A stretch of DNA of 42,560 nucleotides from assembly GCA_947625615.1 (NCBI GenBank), contig CANQPB010000019.1, positions 1-42,560 of the forward strand. Direction: 5' to 3'. Numbering within the stretch: the first letter of the stretch is position 1; every line of letters begins with the position of its first letter. The position numbers and the translations under genes were made by a program. The notes beneath the pieces were generated by a model. That model was not told where the DNA came from and did no database searches. It was given only the letters and a program-made list of their open reading frames with translations. Below, in pieces: positions 2,886 through 37,642 of this stretch. Origin of the DNA: an uncultured Clostridia bacterium (GTDB taxonomy: Bacteria; Bacillota; Clostridia; Oscillospirales; Ruminococcaceae).

Positions 2886-5800
2886 TTATCTTCTCTTGGC
2901 GGCCATTGCGACAACCGCTGCCACAGCGAGCGAAAGGGTGCCGAAGGCTATGCCGGTCTTCGGGTTGGATTCCTCTTCGGCGGGAGCTTCGGTGTCGCCG
3001 ACGTCGGTCTCGTCGTCAGAGGTATCGGTGTTCTGAGTGGTGGTATCGGTCGGGGCATCGACGTCGACCTGCTGCTGATCGCCGGTGTCGGTATCAGTAG
3101 TGTAGCCGGGCTCAATGCCTACGAACGGGAAGTTGTAAGTCTCGGCGTAGCCGCAGACGGTGCATCTGCCGTTGTAGAACTGGTGAGGCTCGTTGTTTAT
3201 GTGAAGTCCGCACTCGAAGCAGATCATCGTGTGGGTGAACTCATCGACGGGAACGGGGCGGAAGTTGTGGTAGATGTGCGGCTCGTTCGCGTTGTCGACG
3301 GTTACGTTGTAGACGACCTCGATCTCGGAAACGACCTTGCCGGAAGCGTCGGTGAGGGTTACCTTAGCGGTGACCTTGCCGGGCTGCTGGTAAAGGGTGT
3401 GCTTTACGCCGGTGATGAAGCCGTTTTCATCGACGGTGACATAGTCGGGGTTGGAAGCAGTCCAGCTTACGCTGTAGCTGCCGCCGGTGGCCTCGGCGAT
3501 AGCCGCAAGGTCGGCGATAACTTCCTCGTCGATGCTGAGCTTATCGGTGGCGCCGACAACTATCGAAACATTGTAGGTGTTGCCGCCGGCGGGAGCAACG
3601 GTCTGAGAATTTGCGGTGGTATCGTCGCTGCCGACGATAACAACGGTGAAGGTTACGGTCTCGCCGGTGACGGGATCGGTGGCGGTGATCTCTGCGGTGC
3701 CGGACGAAACGCCGGTTACTGCGCCGGTCTCGGGATCTACGGTGGCGACGGAAGGATCGCTTGAAGACCATTCAAGATCGCCGAGCGTCTTGCCGTCGGG
3801 GCCCTTGGCCGCGAGGGTTAAACCTGCGCCCGCGCCCATGATGTAGACGGGAGTTTCCTTGCCGTCTTCGGTCTCGCCGGTGACGACGCTGTCGTCATCG
3901 GAAGGAGTGAGACCCTGCTCAACGGTGACCTCATAGACGACCGCAACGGTGTCGTAGGTCTTTTCGTAGGGCTCGTCCTCGGGAGTGAGGGCTTCTCTTG
4001 CGGGATTGATGTATTTGAGGGAGATCTCTGCGGTGACGGTGACGGGCTCCTCGATAGCGGCGTCGGCGGTGATGGTGCCGTCGGCGGCAACGGTGAGATC
4101 CTCGCTGTCGGAAGTCCAGACGATGTCGGTGTAAAGCTCGCCGGGAACGTCCTCAAGCTTCTCGAATTCGTTGTAGTATTCGCAGATGGAATCGAGGTAG
4201 TCAAGTCCGGTGGAATCCAAAACGAGCTTGTCGCCGGAACGCGCCTTTACGGTGGTCTTGTTGACATAGTCTTCAAGAGTTACCGCGTTGCCGAGGGCGG
4301 TGGTTTCGTCGGAGCCGAATACGTAGAGAATGAAGTAAACTTCCTGGCCGGTTACCTCGTCGGCGGCGGTGATTATCGCGCAGCCGGGAGCCTTTGCGGT
4401 GATAACGCCCGCGGCGGTATCATCGGCGTCAGCGGCGACGGTGGCTATAGTCTCGTCGCTCGAAGTCCAGGTGAAATCGCATTCGTTCTCGGCGGGTGTA
4501 ACGGTGACGAACAAGGTGTCGATGTCGCCCTCGCCATAGAGGAAGACGGGGCCGTACTTGCCGTCGACTTCGTTGTTCTCAAAGGCGGACTTGTTCTCGG
4601 AGATGTAGTCGGCCTCGATGAACGAATCGATTCCGAAGTCTTCGAAGATGTTGACGACATAATCGGTCTCGTTCAGACCGTAGTCTAAGAGCGCGACAAC
4701 TACGTCGCCCTGCCAATCGTAGAGGCCGTAATAATCGAAATCGCTTTCGATGCAGAATTCGGTTTCCTTTACGCCGGGATCAAATGTATAGTCGCTATAG
4801 AACATGTTGGTGGAGTCAATCTGAACGTCGCCGTTGCTGTCAACGAAGGCAGGATAAACCTCCATGCCGGCATATGCGTGATCGTCGACAATAGTGCCTT
4901 CGATGGTGATAAGGCCGGAATTCTCTCTGTCGTCGGTGATGGTAACATTGCCGCCGTTGCCGAAATCGGGCCCCTCGGTATCAACGGTTACATCAAAGCT
5001 GATGAAATCGGCGTTGACGGTTCTGCTTCCGTCGCCGAAGGTGGGCCAAGTGGTCTCGTCGTCGAGCGAGAAGTTGGCGGGGAGAATTATAGAGCCGTCG
5101 GCGTCATACTGATAGTTGCCGTCGCCGAAAGCAGCGATGGTGTAGACGCATTCGGTGTTGCTGGGCAGAACCTTGCCGCTGGCATCGGTGCCGTCCCAGC
5201 CGTCCTGATCGAAGTAATAGCTGTAGGGGAATACGATTCCGTAGCTCGGATTGACGTAGGTCTGACCGACAGCGGAATAGTAATCCTGATAGTAGATCTC
5301 GCCGGTCTTCTTGTTCTTTACCTGGAGAACGAGAAGCTTCGCGTCGCGGTTCTGAATGATCTGATAGTAGTCTATCAGATCGAAGTAGCCGTCGCCGTTA
5401 GGCGAAAGGGTCATGTTCTCGTTGTAGAACGGAACACCGTATTCGACATAGTTCTGCTCGCCCATGGAGAGCGGGTTGATGCCGAGCGGGAAGATCTGCG
5501 TGGTGCCGGTGATGAACGAATACATCATGGTGACGTTATCGATGGTATCATCATACCAGAAGGAGTTGTACACACCTTCGGAAAGATCCTGAGCCTCGCC
5601 GTTTTCGTCGAGCTCATAAAGATCGTTCCAGACAGCGGTGTCGAAGATCGGGGCAGCAGTCCAGTCGCCCTGATAGCTGAGGAAGGGAAGACCAACCTCG
5701 GGGATCTCTTCGGCCGCGGGAGCCATGGGATCGAAAGCGGCGGCGGAAGCGGTCACGGGAATAAGTCTTACAAAGCCGTCGATGAAGAAGCCGTTCGGGA

Positions 5801-8402
5801 AGATGTGGTCAAGATAGAGCATATCTTCGGGTTCAACGGTATAGGTGAAGGAGGCGTGGGTAGTGCCGGGAACGGCAACAACCTGGCCGAGGCTCTTTTC
5901 GGCTATGGTGATAGGTACATCAAGACCGATGTAGTATTCAGGGGCAATATCGATAAAGCCGGGGGCGTTGACGATTATCTTGGCTTCGTAGGTGATGGGA
6001 GCGGAGCCCATGTTGACGACGTCGAAATCAAGATTGAGCGTGCCGGTGTAATCGGGATCGTCGCCGAGCTCTAACTTAGGAACCTTCTTGCCGGGGACAT
6101 CGAGGTAGACGTCGGAGGTTACCGCCGCACCGATGTTGGCCATTCCGGCGCCCTGCTGGCGAGGAGAATAGTAGGTGATCGCACCGGTTGTCTCGTCGAC
6201 GCTTTCGACTAACGGCTCAGCGGTGGAGATAAGAAGCTTCTCGGCGGTGGTGCGGATAAAGTCGATGCTCGCGCCGGGATTCTTGGCGGCTACGGCCTGA
6301 CGTGCCAGCGCGCTGAGGCCGGATATGTGCGGGGCGGCCATAGAGGTGCCGTTCATAAGGGTGTAGCTGTTGCCGAATGTAGCGGAATAGATGTTTCCGC
6401 CGGGGGCGGCTATCTCGGGCTTGAGCTCGAGGTTAGGAGTCGGGCCCCAAGAGGAGAAATCGCACATGGTGCCACCGCTTGTGGACGGGAACATGCTGAT
6501 CTCGTCGGTAGGAGGAAGCATGGTTACCTCGGTGCCGGCTTCAATGGCTGCGGCAAGCGCATCGCCGTCGGCCATCGAGATGAAGATAGCCGGGAGGGTG
6601 GAAACTATGCCGAGGGTGTCGTCGGAATTGGCCATGTTGATGAGGTCGCCGACGACGTTGTCATAGACGATGACGCCGAGTACGTTGGGATAATTGGCCT
6701 CGGCATTGTAGACCTTGTTGAAGAAGTTCTCGGTGCCGCGCTGAACGAGGGCAATACCGGTGACGGAGGGATCCGCAAAGGCGGAATTCGCGTAATCGTC
6801 AAGCGAGCCTATGCCTGCTCTGTAAAGCGGAATGGGCGCGGTGGCGGTGCCGAAGGTTTCGACCCAGCCCCTGACGGCGTTATCGGTATAGGGGGCGAGA
6901 ACGGCGCCGGTCTGTTCGCCGATGTTGAAGTTTACGGTGGCGTTGGCGCTCATCGTGTTGTTGACAGCGGCGACCGAAATGGTGGAACCGTAGGTAGAGG
7001 GCGAGCCGACCATCGAAACGTCCACGTTGGCGGGATCGAAGGATCCGATAGAGCCGACAAGCGCGCTGATGAAGTAGTCAGTGCCGTAGCCGGTGCCTAT
7101 GTTGTTATAGCCGACGGTGCCGGAGTTGCCGGCGGAAAGAATTGAGGTGACGCCGGCCTTTTCGATGCTTCTGAAGATGCCGGGCTCAACGGTGTCGTCT
7201 TCCGAGAAGCCGTTGTCGGAGCCGAGCGAAAGGTTGATGACGTCGGCGCCGAGGAAAACGGCGTCCTCAATGGCGTTGATGAGCATGTATTCGTCGGTCA
7301 TGGAGCCCTGATCGTTGAAGACCTTGAGGATCATCAGCTGAGCGTCGGGGGCTATGCCGGAATGCTCAACGGCGCCTTCGGCGGTCTTGGCGTAGCCGGC
7401 AACGGTGCCCGCAACGTGGGTGCCGTGGTTGGAATCGGCCGAAAGATCGGGGACGACGTCGGTATCGCCGTTGGCAAGAAGACCGTTCGGCTTCGCGGAA
7501 CCCGCGTAGTCAAAGGCGTAAGGAACCTTCTTGCTCTTGTAGACGTTCTCCATGCTGTCGCCGGCGGCGATTATCTTTTCAGCCTGGAGCTCGTGCTCGG
7601 CGATAAGGGCGGCTATCCTGGCTTCGTCATATTTTACGAAGCTTACGGAATTCGCGCTCTTGAAGGAATTGGCCTGGAATGCCTGGTGGGAAAGATCGAG
7701 GCCGGTATCCAGAATGGCGACTACCATTCCCTGGCCGGTATAGCCGGCCTCCCAAGCCTCGGAAAGGTTGACCATGTCATAGCCGTAGCCGGCGGGGCCG
7801 TAGATGTCCTCAACGGTCTCGGGGGCCTCGAAGGTGTGCGAAACATAGGCGGTCTTGACGCCGGGGATAGCCTTGATTTCGTCAAGCTTGCCGTAGGGAA
7901 CGCGCACTGCCATGGCGTTTACGGTGTTAGTCCACTGAGAAATGACTTTGCCGCCGCCAAAGCTGGCCATCGGGGCGGGAATGCCGCCGTTTTCAACGGG
8001 GATCGCGCTGATCTCGGCCGCAACTTGGTTCTGCTCGGCGGTTATCTGTGCCGCCATGGACTTTGCCGCGGGAGATGCGAGATATTCGGACACTGCCGAA
8101 CCCGCAGACATGAATGACACCGGCGCGACTGCGTTATAGCTGTCCAGAACGGCGGGGCCGTCGAGCTGGACTATGGCCGTAACCATTTCGTCGTCGCTGT
8201 ATCGGGGCGCATTGACTGTCTGGGCGTTCTTTTCGATGTTGATGCTGCTGACGGACGCGCCGGTATAGGGCACGGCCTTTGTGACACGGATCTTCGCGCC
8301 GTTTTCGCTTACAGCGAAGACGGAGGTGGGAAGCATGCCGACAACGAGCATAACAGCGACAGTAACGGCGACAATGCGCTTTAAAGCGTTGATTTTACTC
8401 AT
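2886..8402 (-). CDS. Large cell-wall-anchored subtilisin-like serine protease (S8, lactocepin/C5a-peptidase type)
   Basis: An 1838-residue secreted protease. It has a signal peptide (residues 1-30), then an inhibitor-type propeptide. The S8 catalytic domain shows Asp232 (AILDTG), His326 (NHGTHVAG), oxyanion Asn426 (SAGNSG) and Ser687 (NGTSMAAPH). A protease-associated (PA) insert lies at about 510-630. Downstream come an Fn3-like region (about 760-920), a FlgD-like Ig module with the SPNGDG motif (about 1000-1120) and three or four bacterial Ig-like (Big2-type) repeats with the WTSSDE/WSSSDP signature (about 1300-1710). A four-cysteine mini-module follows (Cys1728, 1731, 1747, 1750), then a Thr/Asp-rich wall spacer. 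The end is a sorting signal, NPKTG near 1813, hydrophobic stretch and KRR tail. It likely digests external proteins for peptide uptake. No sortase is in the window. Start supported by AAGGAGAGA. Confidence 0.93.
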   Translation of the reverse strand: MSKINALKRIVAVTVAVMLVVGMLPTSVFAVSENGAKIRVTKAVPYTGASVSSINIEKNAQTVNAPRYSDDEMVTAIVQLDGPAVLDSYNAVAPVSFMSAGSAVSEYLASPAAKSMAAQITAEQNQVAAEISAIPVENGGIPAPMASFGGGKVISQWTNTVNAMAVRVPYGKLDEIKAIPGVKTAYVSHTFEAPETVEDIYGPAGYGYDMVNLSEAWEAGYTGQGMVVAILDTGLDLSHQAFQANSFKSANSVSFVKYDEARIAALIAEHELQAEKIIAAGDSMENVYKSKKVPYAFDYAGSAKPNGLLANGDTDVVPDLSADSNHGTHVAGTVAGYAKTAEGAVEHSGIAPDAQLMILKVFNDQGSMTDEYMLINAIEDAVFLGADVINLSLGSDNGFSEDDTVEPGIFRSIEKAGVTSILSAGNSGTVGYNNIGTGYGTDYFISALVGSIGSFDPANVDVSMVGSPSTYGSTISVAAVNNTMSANATVNFNIGEQTGAVLAPYTDNAVRGWVETFGTATAPIPLYRAGIGSLDDYANSAFADPSVTGIALVQRGTENFFNKVYNAEANYPNVLGVIVYDNVVGDLINMANSDDTLGIVSTLPAIFISMADGDALAAAIEAGTEVTMLPPTDEISMFPSTSGGTMCDFSSWGPTPNLELKPEIAAPGGNIYSATFGNSYTLMNGTSMAAPHISGLSALARQAVAAKNPGASIDFIRTTAEKLLISTAEPLVESVDETTGAITYYSPRQQGAGMANIGAAVTSDVYLDVPGKKVPKLELGDDPDYTGTLNLDFDVVNMGSAPITYEAKIIVNAPGFIDIAPEYYIGLDVPITIAEKSLGQVVAVPGTTHASFTYTVEPEDMLYLDHIFPNGFFIDGFVRLIPVTASAAAFDPMAPAAEEIPEVGLPFLSYQGDWTAAPIFDTAVWNDLYELDENGEAQDLSEGVYNSFWYDDTIDNVTMMYSFITGTTQIFPLGINPLSMGEQNYVEYGVPFYNENMTLSPNGDGYFDLIDYYQIIQNRDAKLLVLQVKNKKTGEIYYQDYYSAVGQTYVNPSYGIVFPYSYYFDQDGWDGTDASGKVLPSNTECVYTIAAFGDGNYQYDADGSIILPANFSLDDETTWPTFGDGSRTVNADFISFDVTVDTEGPDFGNGGNVTITDDRENSGLITIEGTIVDDHAYAGMEVYPAFVDSNGDVQIDSTNMFYSDYTFDPGVKETEFCIESDFDYYGLYDWQGDVVVALLDYGLNETDYVVNIFEDFGIDSFIEADYISENKSAFENNEVDGKYGPVFLYGEGDIDTLFVTVTPAENECDFTWTSSDETIATVAADADDTAAGVITAKAPGCAIITAADEVTGQEVYFILYVFGSDETTALGNAVTLEDYVNKTTVKARSGDKLVLDSTGLDYLDSICEYYNEFEKLEDVPGELYTDIVWTSDSEDLTVAADGTITADAAIEEPVTVTAEISLKYINPAREALTPEDEPYEKTYDTVAVVYEVTVEQGLTPSDDDSVVTGETEDGKETPVYIMGAGAGLTLAAKGPDGKTLGDLEWSSSDPSVATVDPETGAVTGVSSGTAEITATDPVTGETVTFTVVIVGSDDTTANSQTVAPAGGNTYNVSIVVGATDKLSIDEEVIADLAAIAEATGGSYSVSWTASNPDYVTVDENGFITGVKHTLYQQPGKVTAKVTLTDASGKVVSEIEVVYNVTVDNANEPHIYHNFRPVPVDEFTHTMICFECGLHINNEPHQFYNGRCTVCGYAETYNFPFVGIEPGYTTDTDTGDQQQVDVDAPTDTTTQNTDTSDDETDVGDTEAPAEEESNPKTGIAFGTLSLAVAAVVAMAAKRR

Positions 8403-30923: not shown

Positions 30924-32672
30924 TCATATGTTAAATACTTTGCAGAGCGTCTCGTGGATATTGCGGATACCCTCGGGCTTCTCGATCTTGGGGGCGCGGG
31001 GGTCTAAAAGCCACGTCTTGGCATAGTGGGTGTCGCTGATCTTGAACATCGGCGGCTCTGCAAGGGTGTCGATCTTCATGCAGTAGGGATTGCGGGGGGC
31101 AAAGGCGTCGCCCACTATCTGGTTATAGAGAGACGGCGGGGTGCCCGTTATGGAATAGAGCTTGGTATCCTTCTGGGCGAGCTGGGGAAGCGAGCTGAGG
31201 AGCGCCCAGGTATAGGGGTGTCTCGGGTCGTAGAAGACCTCTTCGACGGTGCCGAGCTCTACCACCTGTCCGGCATAGAGCACCGCAACTCTGTCGGCTA
31301 CGTTCGCGACGACGCCGAGATCGTGGGTGATGAAGACGGTGGTATAATTGAATTCCTTCTGCAGGTCTTTTATAAGCTGTAAAATCTGTGCCTGGATCGT
31401 AACGTCAAGGGCGGTGGTAGGCTCGTCGCAGATGAGTATCTTGGGCTGGCAGGAGAGCGCTATGGCTATAACGATTCTCTGGCGCATGCCGCCCGAATAC
31501 TGGAAGGGGTAGTCGTCGAATCTCGCCTGGGGATTGGGTATTCCGACCTTGTGCATGAGATCCAGCGCGCGGCGCCTTGCCTCGACCTCTGAGCAGCCCT
31601 GATGCTTTATGATTATCGAGGTAATCTGCTTGCCGATGGTGATTATCGGGTTGAGCGAGGTCATAGGATCCTGGAAGACGGTGGCTATTCTGCGGCCGCG
31701 GATCTGCATCCAGTCCTTGGAATACTTGACGTTTGCAAGGTTGAGTATGCAGGTGCCGTGAAGCTGATCGGGGGTCTCGTCGAGATATCTTACCCTGAAG
31801 ACGACCTCGTCGAAGACGTGATCCCTGAGTTCGTCGTTTGAAAGGTCAACGCCCATTAGCATGGCCTTTTTCATGCTCTTCAAAAGCTTGAAGATGAGCT
31901 TTATCCTTGAGATCAAGCCGTAGCGGCCGACCGAGAGGTATATCTCCTTTGCGAGGATCTCGTTTCTCTTGACGGTATCTTCGGTTATCTCAACCTTGAT
32001 CTTTTCGGCGTGCTCCGCCTTGAGCTGAGCCTTTCTGGCGGCGTAGTCGGCGTTGAATTTCGTGTCGGCGCTCGCCTTGGCCTTCTTGGCCTTCAGCATT
32101 TCGCCCTCGGCGCTCTCAAGCCGCTTTATCTCCCGCTTGTATTCCTTGAGCTTTGCGGAGGCCTCGCGGATCTTGTCCTTTTCCTTCTTGGGGTCGAAGG
32201 TCTGCCTGAGGTTGAACAGCTCGGTGCTCTCGTGCCTTGTGTCCCTGAGTTTTTTCTCGACGTCGGCCTTTTCCTCGTCGGTGAGCTCGGTGCGGGCGCG
32301 CTTTTCGGCCTCAAGCTCGATAAGCTTGCGGTAATCCTCGGCGCCGGCCTCATACTTAGAATATGTGTTCAGCTTGCCGAGGGTGAAGTTAATAAGCGCT
32401 CTCGCGACGGAATTGAGCGAAACCTTGGTGTCGGCGAGCTCGTCGTCCGAGAAGATTATCTGCCCGTCGGAGATGAAGCCGTTTGAATCGAGCATTCCGG
32501 CAAAGGTCTTTGTGAAGACCGATTTGCCCGAGCCCGATTCGCCGACTATGGCTATCGATTCGTTTTCATAGATGTCCAAAGAGATGCCGCGTATGGCGGT
32601 GAGTATTCTGCCGCGGACGCGGAACTTCACCGATAAGTCCTTAACGGACAAAAGTATCTTTTTATCTTCCAC
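30924..32672 (-). CDS. oppD: Oligopeptide ABC transporter ATPase OppD with a large coiled-coil insertion
   Basis: A 582-residue ATP-binding subunit, against about 330-360 in the family. Walker A GESGSGKS is at 44-51, but the Q-loop (TVFQDPMTSLNP) only comes at residue 331. Signature YSGGMRQR (392-399), Walker B ILICDEP (412-418) and switch His450 are intact, so it should still be an active ATPase. The roughly 240 extra residues (about 80-318) are rich in Lys, Glu and Ala, with long predicted coiled-coil heptads at 110-240. The C-terminal Opp extension keeps only one cysteine of the usual four-cysteine cluster (PRNPYC). Starts with GTG after GGAGGGA. No frameshift is needed. Confidence 0.9.
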   Translation of the reverse strand: MEDKKILLSVKDLSVKFRVRGRILTAIRGISLDIYENESIAIVGESGSGKSVFTKTFAGMLDSNGFISDGQIIFSDDELADTKVSLNSVARALINFTLGKLNTYSKYEAGAEDYRKLIELEAEKRARTELTDEEKADVEKKLRDTRHESTELFNLRQTFDPKKEKDKIREASAKLKEYKREIKRLESAEGEMLKAKKAKASADTKFNADYAARKAQLKAEHAEKIKVEITEDTVKRNEILAKEIYLSVGRYGLISRIKLIFKLLKSMKKAMLMGVDLSNDELRDHVFDEVVFRVRYLDETPDQLHGTCILNLANVKYSKDWMQIRGRRIATVFQDPMTSLNPIITIGKQITSIIIKHQGCSEVEARRRALDLMHKVGIPNPQARFDDYPFQYSGGMRQRIVIAIALSCQPKILICDEPTTALDVTIQAQILQLIKDLQKEFNYTTVFITHDLGVVANVADRVAVLYAGQVVELGTVEEVFYDPRHPYTWALLSSLPQLAQKDTKLYSITGTPPSLYNQIVGDAFAPRNPYCMKIDTLAEPPMFKISDTHYAKTWLLDPRAPKIEKPEGIRNIHETLCKVFNI

Positions 32673-32684
32673 TTTTGTCCCTCC

Positions 32685-33668
32685 TTACATGTGTGTTCTC
32701 GGGTCTGAGGCGTCGCCCAGATTCTGTCCGACAACGTAAAGAACAATGGTGATTATTGAAGCTATGGCGACAGGACTCCAGAATTCCATCTGCCAGCCGG
32801 GGGTGACCATGGCGGGCTCGGCCGCGTAGATAAGGCGTCCGAGGGATCTGTCGCTCATGCCCATTCCTATGTAGGCGAGGAAGACTTCATACGAGATATA
32901 GCTCGGCAGCTCGGTGGCAAGCATGGTGACTATGACCGAGGTCATGAACGGAAGGATATTCTTTAAAGCTATCTTTACCGTTGAGGTGCCGAGGCAGCGG
33001 CTCGCAAGGTTATATTCGCGGTCGCGTATGATGATAACCTGCGTTCTTATGAAGTAGGCTATGCCGAGCCAGCCGATTATAGTCATCGCAAAGACCATAG
33101 TCCAGAAGCTCGGGCTGAAAAGCATGGCCATGACGGAGATTATAAGGATAAGCGGCACGTTGCCGACTATGTTGTAGACCTCGGTCATGATGACGTCGAC
33201 CTTCTTGGAGAAGCCCCAGATGGCGCCGATGAATACGCCGACGGTCATGTTGATAGCCGCGCAGATGAACGCGAGGGAGATGGAAATTCTTGAGCCGTAC
33301 CAGATAGAGTCGAAGGTGGATTCGCCGGAGGAGCCGGCGCCGAGTATCCAGTGGAGATTGTGGCCGAACATATCCATGGCCTTAGCGGGCGAAAGATGCT
33401 TCGATTCGGGATTCATGAGGTTTATAAACGGGTCGACCTCGGAGTCGTAGTGGATTATCGAGGGGTAGACATAGGCGAACACGATTATAAACAGGAAGAG
33501 CACAAGAATAACTATGTTTATTCTGTGGTGGAAGAACACCCTGAAGACCGAGCGCCAGTATGAGTAGCGCGGCGCGGTGATCTTTTCGGATTCAAGCTCG
33601 CTGTGGTCAACGGGGGCGAAGAGCTCCTCGTCGGTCATGTTAAACATTTTGTTCAGATCGTCATTCAT
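32685..33668 (-). CDS. oppC: Oligopeptide ABC transporter permease OppC (AmiD-like)
   Basis: A 327-residue inner-membrane permease of the binding-protein-dependent type. A cytoplasmic tail of about 45 residues precedes the first membrane helix (about 50-72). An outside loop, then five further helices, follow. The EAA-type cytoplasmic loop (residues about 213-240, ASRCLGTSTVKIALKNILP) contacts the ATPases. The N-terminal tail with APRYSYWRSVFRVFFHHR is typical of OppC/AmiD. It lies 5 bp after oppB and 12 bp before oppD. Confidence 0.93.
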   Translation of the reverse strand: MNDDLNKMFNMTDEELFAPVDHSELESEKITAPRYSYWRSVFRVFFHHRINIVILVLFLFIIVFAYVYPSIIHYDSEVDPFINLMNPESKHLSPAKAMDMFGHNLHWILGAGSSGESTFDSIWYGSRISISLAFICAAINMTVGVFIGAIWGFSKKVDVIMTEVYNIVGNVPLILIISVMAMLFSPSFWTMVFAMTIIGWLGIAYFIRTQVIIIRDREYNLASRCLGTSTVKIALKNILPFMTSVIVTMLATELPSYISYEVFLAYIGMGMSDRSLGRLIYAAEPAMVTPGWQMEFWSPVAIASIITIVLYVVGQNLGDASDPRTHM

Positions 33669-33673
33669 TTATG

Positions 33674-35263
33674 TCACCTCGCCTTATCTGAGAAGGATAT
33701 TCTGGGATCTACCATGGACATGAACACGTCGCCCAGAATTATTGATACCACCGACAGCACGGCGTAGAACAGCGTGACGCCGACTATAACGCCGTTGTCG
33801 TATTTGTTGATTGCCTGGGTTAAAAGGTTGCCGGCGCCAGGCACCGAATAGATGCGCTCGGTGATGATGGCGCCCGTCATCGCGAAGATGACGCTTGCCG
33901 GAACGCCGTGGACTATAGGAATCAGCGCGTTCTTCCAGATGTGCTTCGTGAAGATCTCCATTTCGCTGAGACCGCCGGAGCGCGCAAACTTTACATAGTC
34001 CGAATTCATCTGGTCGATCATGTAGCGGCGCATCCACTTCATGAGGTTTGCAATCGAGGGCAGCGCCAGCGAAACGATCGGCAGAATATACATGAGTTTG
34101 TCGTCAGAGTCCATGTTAAACAGCGTCGGCAGATGGAATACCGAGCCGCCTATGGCCTTGAAGAGGAAAATATATGCAAGCGACGGAACGGCGATTATGA
34201 ACATTATGTAAACCGTTCCTACCTTGTCCAGAACTCCCTCCTTGAATCTTGCCATCAGAAGGCCTATCGGAAGTCCGAGGACATAGGCCATGATGACCGA
34301 GAAGATGCCGATAACGAAGGAGTAGCCTATCTTCGACATGCCGTCCTTAAAGGTGAGTACGTTGGTGTAGTCGTCGACAAAGCGCTGCCTGTTTATATCG
34401 GTGGTGAGTGAATTCGGGACGTATGTGGCGGTGTGAAGGTCGTCCGCTCTGTCAAGGACGTTTCCCGTCGGGAAGGTCATCGTAGACAGAATATAGGAGC
34501 CCTGAGTCTCCGTCATGGTGGTAAAGACGTCAACGCCGCGGTTTACCGTATAGGATTCGCCGAGGTTGAGCGTCAGGAAATTCTGATGAATAAAGGGGAA
34601 CCGGCTGTCGAAATATAAAAGATATTTATGCTTGGTGCCGTTTCCCATGATCGCCGGAGAGAATACCTTCTCGGTGCCGGTGGGATTTCTGACGGGATCG
34701 TAGAGGGTAAAGGTAAGCTTGCGCTCGCCGATATCTACGTCGTCGGGAACGTAATGTATGTTGTCAAACTGGAACATCTTGGTGAAATAGGTGATTGCGC
34801 GCATGTAAAGCGGAATATCGCGGGTTGCGAAAAGGACGGGCTGGCCGCCGTCGCGAATCTGACCGTTGCGCTTTAAATCGGCATTAAGACGTGTAACGGT
34901 GTAGCCCATGGATTCATAGTAATCCGTAAACTTTTTGATATATTCCGCTGCAAGTTCCGAATCGTTTTCGGGGGTGTTGCCGATCTTTGCAACCGACACA
35001 CGGTGGTCGTCGGTGAGCTCGCCCGACTTGACAAGACTGTTGATGTAATCCGCGTAGGGAACGTAGTCCAGATATCCGAAGGCCTCGAATCGGGACTGCT
35101 CGTAGGTAACGCGGTTATTGCTTACGGTATGATTATAGTTAGGGTCGCCAGCGAAAATCTTGTTTCTGTCAAGCAGCGAGTATATCAGCACCATGACTAT
35201 AAGCACAACGCAAACCACGGAGAAAAGTCCGTGAAGCAGTCGCTTGAAGATATATTTTCCCAT
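33674..35263 (-). CDS. oppB: Oligopeptide ABC transporter permease OppB (AmiC-like, with large outside domain)
   Basis: A 529-residue permease. The first membrane helix (about 10-31) is followed by a soluble extracytoplasmic domain of about 290 residues before five further helices and the EAA-type loop (ARSGGLSEMEIFTKHIWKN). The length matches the AmiC type of Gram-positive bacteria (about 500 residues) rather than the 310-residue Gram-negative OppB, so the outside domain is a family trait that may help dock the binding protein. It is separated from oppA by 111 bases containing a GC-rich hairpin; AGGTC is a weak ribosome site. Confidence 0.92.
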   Translation of the reverse strand: MGKYIFKRLLHGLFSVVCVVLIVMVLIYSLLDRNKIFAGDPNYNHTVSNNRVTYEQSRFEAFGYLDYVPYADYINSLVKSGELTDDHRVSVAKIGNTPENDSELAAEYIKKFTDYYESMGYTVTRLNADLKRNGQIRDGGQPVLFATRDIPLYMRAITYFTKMFQFDNIHYVPDDVDIGERKLTFTLYDPVRNPTGTEKVFSPAIMGNGTKHKYLLYFDSRFPFIHQNFLTLNLGESYTVNRGVDVFTTMTETQGSYILSTMTFPTGNVLDRADDLHTATYVPNSLTTDINRQRFVDDYTNVLTFKDGMSKIGYSFVIGIFSVIMAYVLGLPIGLLMARFKEGVLDKVGTVYIMFIIAVPSLAYIFLFKAIGGSVFHLPTLFNMDSDDKLMYILPIVSLALPSIANLMKWMRRYMIDQMNSDYVKFARSGGLSEMEIFTKHIWKNALIPIVHGVPASVIFAMTGAIITERIYSVPGAGNLLTQAINKYDNGVIVGVTLFYAVLSVVSIILGDVFMSMVDPRISFSDKAR

Positions 35264-35282: not shown

Positions 35283-35333
35283 AGCTTTTAAAATAAATAA
35301 GCGCAAGGGGGTGCGGAAGCCCCCACCCCCTTG
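35283..35333 (-). terminator. Attenuator-like hairpin between oppA and oppB
   Basis: CAAGGGGGTG (35304-35313) and CACCCCCTTG (35324-35333) form a 10-bp stem; on the minus strand it is followed by CGCTTATTTATTTT. It probably ends most oppA transcripts and lets some reach oppBCDF, giving an excess of the binding protein. Confidence 0.7.
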
Positions 35334-35374: not shown

Positions 35375-37642
35375 TCAGAACAGACCGATATTCTTGGCCA
35401 TGTAGCCGTAAGCCTGAATGGTATCGAGATAGGTCTGGGCGTCGCCGTAGTCCGGGCCCCAGCCTGAACCGGTAGAGAGGTCGAAGTTGGCCTCGGCGCC
35501 GGTAGAGAATCTGTAAGTAGCGCTTTCCATCTCGGCGCTGTCTGCCATGGCGACGAGGTTAACAATAACCTTGCCTTCAAGGGCAGCCTCAACGCTCTGC
35601 TTGAGAGAATTAGCCTGGTTGACAGCGATCTCGGCGTCGGTCTCGTAAGGATAGTCGACGTAGATAGGCTTGTCAGCGGAAACCTCAACGCCCTGCTCGG
35701 CGAGCTTCTGGATAGCGATCTCGAGCTGAGCCTTGGCGAAGTCGGGGTTGTACCAACCGTCGAAGCCGTCGCCGGAAGCGGTCTCATCGTTCCAAACGGT
35801 GATGTCTACGCCGTCAGCGTCGAGCTGAGCCTGTTCGATCTTACCGAAGGAAGTGCCGGCCGGGAAGGTGGTAGAGGTGCCGTTGACGTCAACGGTGACA
35901 TCGGAAGCGAGGAACTGGAAGGTGCCGGGAACGTAAGAGTTGCGGAGTCTGTTGTACTTGAGCTCTTCACCGACGGAGCAGGCGTTGTAAGCGCCGCGGT
36001 CGAAGGCGGTGAGGAAGGCAAGACGGAACTCCTTAAGAGCCATAGCCTGCTTGGTGCGGAGCTGCTCTTCTTCGTTCTTGGGAGATACGCCGACGGTAGG
36101 ATCGTCCCAGTTGGCCCAAGTGCCGCGGTTGACGTTCATCCAGCCGCAGTAGGTGGTGCCGGCGCCGTCGGAAACGTAGGCATACTTTTCGAAGATGGTC
36201 TCGGTGTCGCCATCGAGCTTGTCGACCTTGGCGCTCTCGAGGTTAGGACCGGCAATGCCGGCGCCGGCGATGGTACCGGCCTTAGCTTCTTCGTAGGCAC
36301 GGGTTACATCGGAACCGTCGTTGTAGGTGTAGACAAGGGTCTTGATGTTGATGGAATCGGGATTCCAGTAAGTCGGGTTAGCAGAATAGCTGGTGATGTT
36401 TCTTTCGGTGTAGTTGGTGATGAGGTAAGGGCCGCAGTAAGCAATGTTAGCGGGGGTCTTGCCGTAGTCACCGGGAGTGTAGGTATCGCCCTCGGCGCCG
36501 AAGGTACCGCCCTGAGCCTTGTAGAAGTCACGGTTCAGAGGAGCGAAGCAAGCGTAGCCGAGCATGGTGGGGAAGGGCGGGAAGGGATTGATGAGGGTAT
36601 ACTGAAGAGTATAGTCGTCAATAGCCTTAACACCGACATCTTCGAAGGTGGCAGTGCCGGCGAGGTAATCATCGAAACCGACAAGGCCGCAGCCGCCGTC
36701 GGCGCTCATGAGGTAACCTAAAGCGTCAAAGTTGTCGAGAAGGTGCTCCATGGAAGCGACCCAGTCGTCAGCGGTGACTTCGCCGATCTCGGAACCCTGC
36801 TGATCGACCCACTTTACACCCTTGCGAATGTGGAAGGTGTAGGTAAGGCCGTCGTCGGAAACCTCGTAGCTCTCGGCAAGGCCGGGCTGCTGAACACCCT
36901 TGGCGTCATATTCAAGAAGGTTGTCGTAAGTACCGGCAACGAACATGGAGTCAGAGGTGTAGGAGGTGGCGATGGTGTCCCAGATGTTGATGGCGTAACC
37001 GTTGGAGGAGGTGTAGGTATCGGTGAAGGTGTAGCCCTTACCGGTAAGGAACTCCTTAACCTTGGTGCGGTAGTCCTCGGCGCTCTCAGCGGCAGACCAC
37101 AGAGCGATGCACTCGGTTCTGTCGGCAGCGGAGATGAGCTCGTTGGTAACAAGAAGGGTGTGGTAGCGGTATTCATCAAGACCCCAAAGGGTGGTAGCGG
37201 CGTTGGTACGAGGAACAACGCGGCTCATGGTGAAGGCGCCGCCGGAAGTCTGAACAGGAAGGAAGGCGCCGCTCTCGAGGAGCTTGGCCTCAGCAAGAGC
37301 CATCTTGGCCATGCGAAGGTCGCCGGTTTCTTCCTTGGCGTCAGCATAAGCAGCTGCATATTCGCCGAGGACGTAATCGTAAACGATTTCGTCAGCCTCT
37401 TCCTTGTCCATTTCTGCAAGAGCAGTAAAGTCAAGGTAATCGGCAGAGGCTTCGGTGTTGTCGGCGTCAGCGTCGGTATCGGCGTCGGTATCGGCGTCAG
37501 CGTCGACAGGGGTTTCCTCACCGTTGTTGGCAACAACATTGTTGTCATCGTTATTGTCTTCAACGGGAGTGGTGTCGTCGCCGCAGGCTACAAGGCTGAA
37601 GAGCATTGTAAGAGCAAGCAGCAGACTTAAGAACTTTCTCAT
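35375..37642 (-). CDS. oppA: Peptide-binding lipoprotein OppA/AmiA-like, apparently circularly permuted
   Basis: A 755-residue SBP_bac_5-family lipoprotein, lipobox LVAC with Cys20, then an acidic linker (45-62). Residues about 85-200 resemble the C-terminal end of AmiA-type proteins: a charged helix, LAEAKLLESGAFLPVQTSGG, TMSRVVPRTN and LDEYRYHTL. The normal N-terminal start of the fold comes only after residue 215 (SMFVAGTYDNLLEYDAKG, GLTYTFHIRKGVKW). The chain ends at GWGPDYGDAQTYLDT plus 15 residues, where relatives continue for over 100 residues. This is the order expected of a circular permutation. It should capture peptides outside the membrane for OppBCDF. AAGGAGG precedes the ATG. 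Alternative: an unrelated N-terminal domain and a truncated C-terminus. Confidence 0.9.
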   Translation of the reverse strand: MRKFLSLLLALTMLFSLVACGDDTTPVEDNNDDNNVVANNGEETPVDADADTDADTDADADNTEASADYLDFTALAEMDKEEADEIVYDYVLGEYAAAYADAKEETGDLRMAKMALAEAKLLESGAFLPVQTSGGAFTMSRVVPRTNAATTLWGLDEYRYHTLLVTNELISAADRTECIALWSAAESAEDYRTKVKEFLTGKGYTFTDTYTSSNGYAINIWDTIATSYTSDSMFVAGTYDNLLEYDAKGVQQPGLAESYEVSDDGLTYTFHIRKGVKWVDQQGSEIGEVTADDWVASMEHLLDNFDALGYLMSADGGCGLVGFDDYLAGTATFEDVGVKAIDDYTLQYTLINPFPPFPTMLGYACFAPLNRDFYKAQGGTFGAEGDTYTPGDYGKTPANIAYCGPYLITNYTERNITSYSANPTYWNPDSINIKTLVYTYNDGSDVTRAYEEAKAGTIAGAGIAGPNLESAKVDKLDGDTETIFEKYAYVSDGAGTTYCGWMNVNRGTWANWDDPTVGVSPKNEEEQLRTKQAMALKEFRLAFLTAFDRGAYNACSVGEELKYNRLRNSYVPGTFQFLASDVTVDVNGTSTTFPAGTSFGKIEQAQLDADGVDITVWNDETASGDGFDGWYNPDFAKAQLEIAIQKLAEQGVEVSADKPIYVDYPYETDAEIAVNQANSLKQSVEAALEGKVIVNLVAMADSAEMESATYRFSTGAEANFDLSTGSGWGPDYGDAQTYLDTIQAYGYMAKNIGLF

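Follow-up and report, generated by a model that had tools for sequence, protein, structure and literature searches.

Few bacterial proteins have been studied as thoroughly as the binding proteins of ABC importers, whose topology is used in classifying them. The window (the whole stretch of 42,560 nucleotides of DNA analysed here, from an uncultured Clostridia bacterium) carries a gene for a 755-residue protein of this kind, which a preliminary description made from the letters alone held to be circularly permuted: the pattern that normally closes the chain of AmiA/OppA proteins was said to stand right behind the lipobox and acidic linker, and the chain to end where its relatives continue. The question raised by this locus is whether the chain of a binding protein has been reordered in this way and, if so, what follows for its lipid anchor. 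Reading of the translation bore out the open reading frame, strand, coordinates and motifs of that description (Table 1): AEAKLLESGAFLPV, SGG, MSRVVP and YRYHTL are all present at residues 85-200 (37043-37390), after the LVAC lipobox with Cys20 and the acidic linker, and the frame stops shortly past GWGPDYGDAQTYLDT, as had been claimed.

Table 1. Binding-protein gene, its parts and its operon partners (positions in the window).
Feature	Position	Strand	Basis
Probable permuted AmiA/Ali-type oligopeptide-binding lipoprotein, 755 aa	35375..37642	-	ORF, SBP_bac_5 match and swapped two-part PDB match
Signal peptide and lipobox LVAC; predicted lipidated Cys20 (from the motif)	37583..37642	-	Translation; family lipobox pattern
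Acidic low-complexity linker, residues 21-78	37409..37582	-	Sequence
Moved segment part 1, residues ~79-133, corresponding to AliD 525-582, Domain III / Lobe 2	37244..37408	-	AliD alignment and limits in PMC11192437 (excerpts); approximate
Moved segment part 2, residues ~134-170, corresponding to AliD 583-617, Domain I / Lobe 1, with MSRVVP	37133..37243	-	AliD alignment and PMC11192437 (excerpts); approximate
Counterpart of helix alpha19 (residues ~171-198), formerly C-terminal and now inside the chain	37049..37132	-	Profile match to AliC; PMC11192437 (excerpts)
New junction, residues ~199-206, old C-terminus to old N-terminus	37025..37048	-	Family and seam alignments
Core (residues 207-755), with the old N-terminus, Domains I, II, I and the greater part of III	35378..37024	-	PDB match, core models, seam alignment
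W728-D731, equivalents of AliD W498 and D501	35450..35461	-	AliD alignment, 44-row alignment, PMC11192437 (excerpts)
GC-rich hairpin followed by T-rich stretch, between binding-protein gene and oppB	35304..35333	-	RNA fold
OppB permease, 529 aa, ~200 aa longer than usual; extra part precedes permease domain (330-523)	33674..35263	-	Domain matches, length comparison
OppC permease	32685..33668	-	Domain matches
OppD ATPase, 582 aa, ~190-aa charged insertion inside ATPase domain	30924..32672	-	Domain matches, length comparison
OppF-like ATPase, 434 aa	29607..30911	-	Domain match; name by operon order

Order of the two homologous parts

The sole Pfam domain above the cut-off in the 755-residue protein is SBP_bac_5 (3.9e-42 at residues 252-743, positions 3-361 of the 368 of the model, nearly the full domain length); because this match covers only the middle of the protein, automatic annotation finds an ordinary family member and nothing odd. 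Searched with phmmer against the PDB, the protein gave 65 matches, of which the 60 listed are all SBP_bac_5-type binding proteins by name, and its best relatives are AliC, AmiA, AliB and AliD. Each of these four aligned as two separate stretches in exchanged order; in AliC, residues 25-505 were matched by residues 221-753 of the query and residues 510-615 by residues 82-184. Taken alone, with a single sequence as query, the second stretch was significant for AliC (i-E 4.5e-4) and AmiA (1.5e-3) but not for AliD (2.1) and AliB (8.2). A profile of the segment, built from 23 rows from family members and searched against the PDB (177,635 distinct sequences) with E up to 10, matched the C-terminal parts of all four (AliC 5.2e-9, AmiA 8.5e-8, AliB 2.9e-7 and AliD 3.2e-7; residues 515-631 of the 633 in AliC) and no other sequence in that set. 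The moved segment of ~120 residues (~79-200), lying between the lipobox with its linker and the core, is thus homologous to the AmiA/Ali C-terminus, and residues 207-755 match the N-terminal and middle parts of these proteins, ending where the segment would follow. The Asp and Trp of the AmiA/Ali type that bind the peptide N-terminus are retained, and the canonical chain order with alpha19 at the C-terminus is absent, the alpha19 equivalent (~171-198) preceding the core. At the level of sequence the two homologous parts occur in exchanged order with none missing or doubled, as expected of a circular permutation. The preliminary description had named the lack of the family's C-terminal elements in this region as an argument against its own reading; by sequence, these elements are there.

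The window protein was rearranged to residues 207-755 followed by residues 76-206 and aligned locally with 24 linear relatives, with 30 segment shuffles for comparison. The rearranged query gained 12 to 79 points over the shuffled-segment mean and outscored all 30 shuffles in 22 of the 24 relatives (the exceptions being loci L133 and L145), so that the rearrangement restored co-linearity with 22 of 24. Core residue 755 and segment residue 76 were both paired with adjacent positions of the linear protein in 20 of 24 cases, and up to nine seam residues were unaligned in L135, L136, L138 and L153. Nothing large is missing or doubled at the seam across the 24 relatives. Since the join residues were hand-picked and gap costs favour a gap-free seam, the test does not fix the exact cut. 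None of 12 classical OppA controls gained from the rearranged order (five scored slightly lower than in the given order), which indicates that homology of the segment is detectable only within the Ami group. At the new junction, the sequence alignment leads from the old C-terminal helix through a short turn into the old first strand; the counterpart of this junction in linear proteins is the lipobox and linker. G203 is invariant in the 44-sequence alignment (44/44), with Y204 and D208 conserved in at least 90% of sequences; D731 is likewise invariant (44/44) and W728 is found in at least 90%.

According to the excerpts of PMC11192437 that deal with AliD, Lobe 1 of this protein comprises Domain I (29-63, 191-296 and 583-617) and Domain II (64-190), Lobe 2 is Domain III (297-582), and helix alpha19 (622-652) is a hallmark of Ali proteins; W498 and D501 hold the peptide N-terminus, and F518 and Y519 lie in the pocket. 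Using 8qlc, for which the chain index equals the residue number minus 25 (derived from the named AliD residues), the cut maps to about AliD 524/525 in Domain III (Lobe 2), a few residues past F518/Y519, and sequence mapping puts the new chain ends in this domain, no more than about eight residues from the aromatics of the peptide pocket; because the similarity of the segment to PDB sequences is modest (profile E 1e-7 to 1e-9), this residue-level mapping is approximate. From the AliD domain map, two inter-lobe chain crossings would be kept in the permuted protein.

We consider it very likely, with a probability of about 0.92, that the 755-residue protein represents an AmiA/Ali fold that was circularly permuted in nature, and that it is an oligopeptide-binding lipoprotein of an Ami/Opp-type ABC importer. 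Such a protein would fold as the usual two-lobed peptide trap, would hold the N-terminus of its peptide through W728/D731, as conservation of the site suggests, and, to judge from the operon, would hand peptides to OppBCDF. With its ends beside the ligand pocket it would also offer a ready-made permuted scaffold for sensors.

Distribution and origin of the permuted family

A near full-length homologue was found in 17 of 30 same-genus genomes and in none of 29 additional ones sampled at family and order level. Among GTDB species genomes, a scan yielded 53 loci with 39-83% identity to the query, mostly named Lachnospiraceae, Oscillospiraceae or other Clostridia, with two in bins named Bacteroidota. 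These 53 loci, the window and eight more, chosen by similarity to the whole query or to the segment, make up the 62 close-family loci to which the segment and core models were applied; the same order had been suggested as something to look for in relatives, and segment precedes core in all 62. The permutation is therefore common to a whole family of related proteins in gut bacteria. As a separate observation, L052 and L057 are contigs of 4-5 kb from bins named Muribaculaceae and Rikenella that lie deep within the Clostridia clade and are probably misbinned.

Wider sampling recovered both orders. The segment was present in 21 of 391 genomes of a class sample (5 before the core and 16 after it, with linear L097 split over two ORFs) and in 19 of 398 genomes of a phylum sample, where 2 of 23 matches stood before the core and 21 after; three genomes (G000, G085 and G122) are common to both samples. 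Within the family of G085, 20 of 299 genomes contained the segment, 14 permuted and 7 linear, G938 having both. Among the segment matches in these three samples there was no segment-core-segment gene. The chain end fell within two residues of the query's end in 69 of the 71 ORFs compared, a number that counts the copy in the window and includes three contigs in duplicate, and a second segment copy after the core was absent in 69 of the 71; the two ORFs without an intact end are L049 (contig edge) and L081 (frame running off past unknown bases).

In core trees that set permuted rows against 22-24 linear relatives, the permuted proteins form one clade, with SH-aLRT support of 100 for 56 permuted rows and 98/99 for 47. 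Trees and counts left out L034, L047 and L074 (contigs of L005, L007 and L020), L001 (the window) and the partial L049, L060 and L081; twelve more rows, near-duplicates or long branches, were dropped from the 47-row tree. The nearest linear group in the 56-row tree consists of the Ami-like proteins of G729 and L130, and the tree of OppC partners also gave G729 and L130 (99/91; flagged for long branches); in the 47-row tree all linear proteins group together with weak support (93/60), and the sister group differs between the two core trees. The OppC tree contains two label changes because the OppC of L080 belongs to another upstream operon (26% identity); the other 52 permuted-locus OppCs lie together, and the long branches of L137 and L130 are possibly falsely joined. 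Overall, the swapped order, the contiguous seam, the monophyletic family and the linear relatives in other genomes uphold, as far as sequence can, the circular permutation first proposed from this window.

Other explanations have to accommodate the same observations. The separate phmmer alignments of segment and core, together with the Pfam detection of the core only, would also suit an independent N-terminal domain in front of a core that works as a C-terminally shortened binding protein; this is very improbable, given that all 62 loci have the segment, with invariant positions in it, and that its profile matches exactly what the core lacks at its end. If instead the N-terminal segment packed in trans, completing the fold of a neighbour in an obligate swapped dimer or chain, no monomer would be truly permuted, and crystallisation of AliC as a domain-swapped dimer (reported in the excerpts of PMC11192437) lends this some plausibility; we nevertheless think it improbable, because only a short turn, in which one Gly is invariant, connects segment and core, and this turn sits where both ends of the linear chain are found. 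An assembly or binning artefact comes to mind since most loci are metagenome-assembled, and its probability is negligible: the 62 loci stem from many assemblies, 53 of them span 39-83% identity, and L066 (Lachnospiraceae bacterium A4) and L054 (Pseudoflavonifractor sp. MSJ-30) are not labelled metagenome-assembled.

The protein could also be a permutant whose moved segment came from another, distant gene and not from a duplicate of the same gene. Such a source was suggested as possible for the moved part of the Treponema pallidum lipoprotein TpMglB-2 (excerpts of PMC4990184), and the similarity of the segment to linear proteins is weaker than that of the core. On the other side, the 24 linear relatives come out in a similar order whether ranked by core score or by segment gain (Spearman 0.72, five of the top six shared; the rows are mutually related and so not independent), which favours one parent gene and leaves a distant source unlikely. 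The permutation most likely goes back to a single origin by tandem duplication of a linear gene, after which the tail of the first copy would have been fused to the body of the second and the outer parts lost. Tandem same-strand linear AmiA-type genes occur in two genomes (L191, with broken frames, and L196, with a second copy lacking its front part) and represent raw material for permutation by duplication; as the known pairs are broken or shortened and no segment-core-segment intermediate was seen among the segment matches of the three samples, the duplication route is one that we infer. The clade also offers a natural test of how a large permuted protein reaches fixation.

Lipid anchor and transporter partners

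The lipid Cys and its linker now lead into Lobe 2 (Domain III), so that the protein would hang by the opposite lobe from its linear relatives. Assuming a canonical fold, the lipid anchor would thus have moved from Lobe 1 to Lobe 2, on a longer tether: in 45 permuted members the median length of the linker from Cys to segment is 45 residues (range 6-248), and in the 18 of 24 linear proteins with a lipobox found, that from Cys to core is 19. The different place of the anchor that the preliminary description had foreseen would follow from the AliD domain map in the excerpts of PMC11192437. Two variations of the front part were seen along the way: in L079 (2552-5419) the permuted binding protein has a ~250-residue TEAPTEA-type repeat linker between lipobox and segment, and the linear relatives L138 and L139 have an extra N-terminal region just before the core, each with a GRTMVPLRFVAE motif.

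The lipobox pattern missed 10 of 55 permuted members, a count that also left out L151; L051 and L075 have a lipobox-like Cys, and the other eight were judged by eye to have an ordinary signal peptide without lipobox (L038, L039, L042, L043, L044, L057, L058 and L080). The lipobox-less members lie on several branches of the 56-row tree, where L079, which has a lipobox, falls among four of them, and the anchor has apparently been lost more than once in the permuted clade. A loss of the basic membrane-facing surface of alpha19 was also considered and set aside as too weak: net charge had a median of -2 in 56 permuted and -1 in 24 linear proteins (p 7e-4, ignoring relatedness).

The window gene has the lipobox Cys and the operon with two permeases and two ATPases that are expected of an ABC-importer binding lipoprotein, and oppB and oppC lie downstream of the permuted gene wherever the locus extends far enough (62 loci). 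By stop-to-stop length, OppB beside permuted genes measured 525-581 residues in 52 of 52 complete frames (56 tree-set loci), and beside linear genes 313-405 in 15 of 17, the remaining two being L130 (498) and L137 (500). With two frames of other operons (L046 and L080) set aside, OppD downstream of permuted genes measured 584-595 residues in 8 of 9 complete frames (357 in L085), with two more of 602 and 606, and OppD beside linear genes 345-514 (15 frames). The enlarged OppB and OppD place the permutation within a transporter type with large forms of both proteins; long OppB also accompanies the linear proteins of L130 and L137. The extra region of OppB (residues ~35-305) matched nothing in Pfam or the PDB with E-values of 1 or below. 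In the window, the charged insertion of OppD (30924-32672; ~190 residues) is probably coiled.

Tentatively, and with considerable doubt, we suggest that a binding protein hung from Lobe 2 meets its transporter reversed or more freely, and that the large outer region of OppB took over its retention, which would account for the repeated loss of the anchor. If true, hanging by Lobe 2 with retention by OppB would mean that an entire clade of gut Clostridia docks its binding protein in a mode of its own. A clade with the chain cut elsewhere constitutes a natural test of whether the anchor-bearing lobe matters for docking.

The 102-nt stretch that contains the hairpin upstream of oppB folds at -34.8 kcal/mol (z -3.15; 2 of 200 shuffles as good), and a terminator scan did not list this hairpin. 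It is possibly an attenuator or mRNA stabiliser and may set the ratio of binding protein to OppB.

Relation to known binding proteins

The AmiA and AliB-D oligopeptide-binding proteins belong to cluster C. The window protein is homologous in both its parts to these proteins of the pneumococcal Ami system (PDB 8a42, 8qlh, 8qlj and 8qlc) and has in common with them the Asp and Trp for the peptide N-terminus, an alpha19 equivalent and an operon of OppB/C/D/F homologues. It differs from them in having the last ~120 residues at the front, new ends in Domain III, a longer linker and, probably, a lipid anchor on Lobe 2.

Outside SBP_bac_5 there is a precedent for a permuted binding lipoprotein, TpMglB-2 (Tp0684), the glucose-binding lipoprotein of Treponema pallidum for which a 'Cluster Bc' was proposed (excerpts of PMC4990184). 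In the same excerpts of PMC4990184 it is likewise described as a naturally permuted ABC-importer binding lipoprotein, within a wider group that includes Gram-positives. However, TpMglB-2 is a cluster B sugar binder in which strands of the N-lobe moved to the C-terminus, whereas in the window protein, an SBP_bac_5 member, the C-terminal part moved to the N-terminus; TpMglB-2 needs a fourth inter-lobe crossing where the window protein would keep two, and its permuted part is poorly conserved in sequence (excerpts of PMC4990184), whereas homology of the moved part is still measurable here. The window protein, whose only Pfam match above the cut-off is SBP_bac_5 and whose 60 listed PDB matches (of 65) are all of that type by name, showed no relation to cluster B sugar binders such as the TpMglB-2-like 'Cluster Bc' proteins. 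Among the matches listed in the open-access literature we found no permuted member of SBP_bac_5, in agreement with the preliminary description, which knew of none.

The OppD of the window scores 724 bits against the mycoplasma OppD model NF043079 (cut-off 740) and so resembles that long form of OppD, which raised the question whether mycoplasma OppA is also a permuted family. This was rejected: the segment of the linear relative G463 falls at 787-883 of the mycoplasma OppA model (NCBIfam NF043077), after the stretch (683-736) to which the window protein's end aligns, so that this OppA, judged from the model alone, appears linear, unlike the window protein. Elsewhere in the window, 2886-8402 encodes an 1838-residue subtilisin-like protease in which Pfam finds a PA domain and Big_2 in three stretches.
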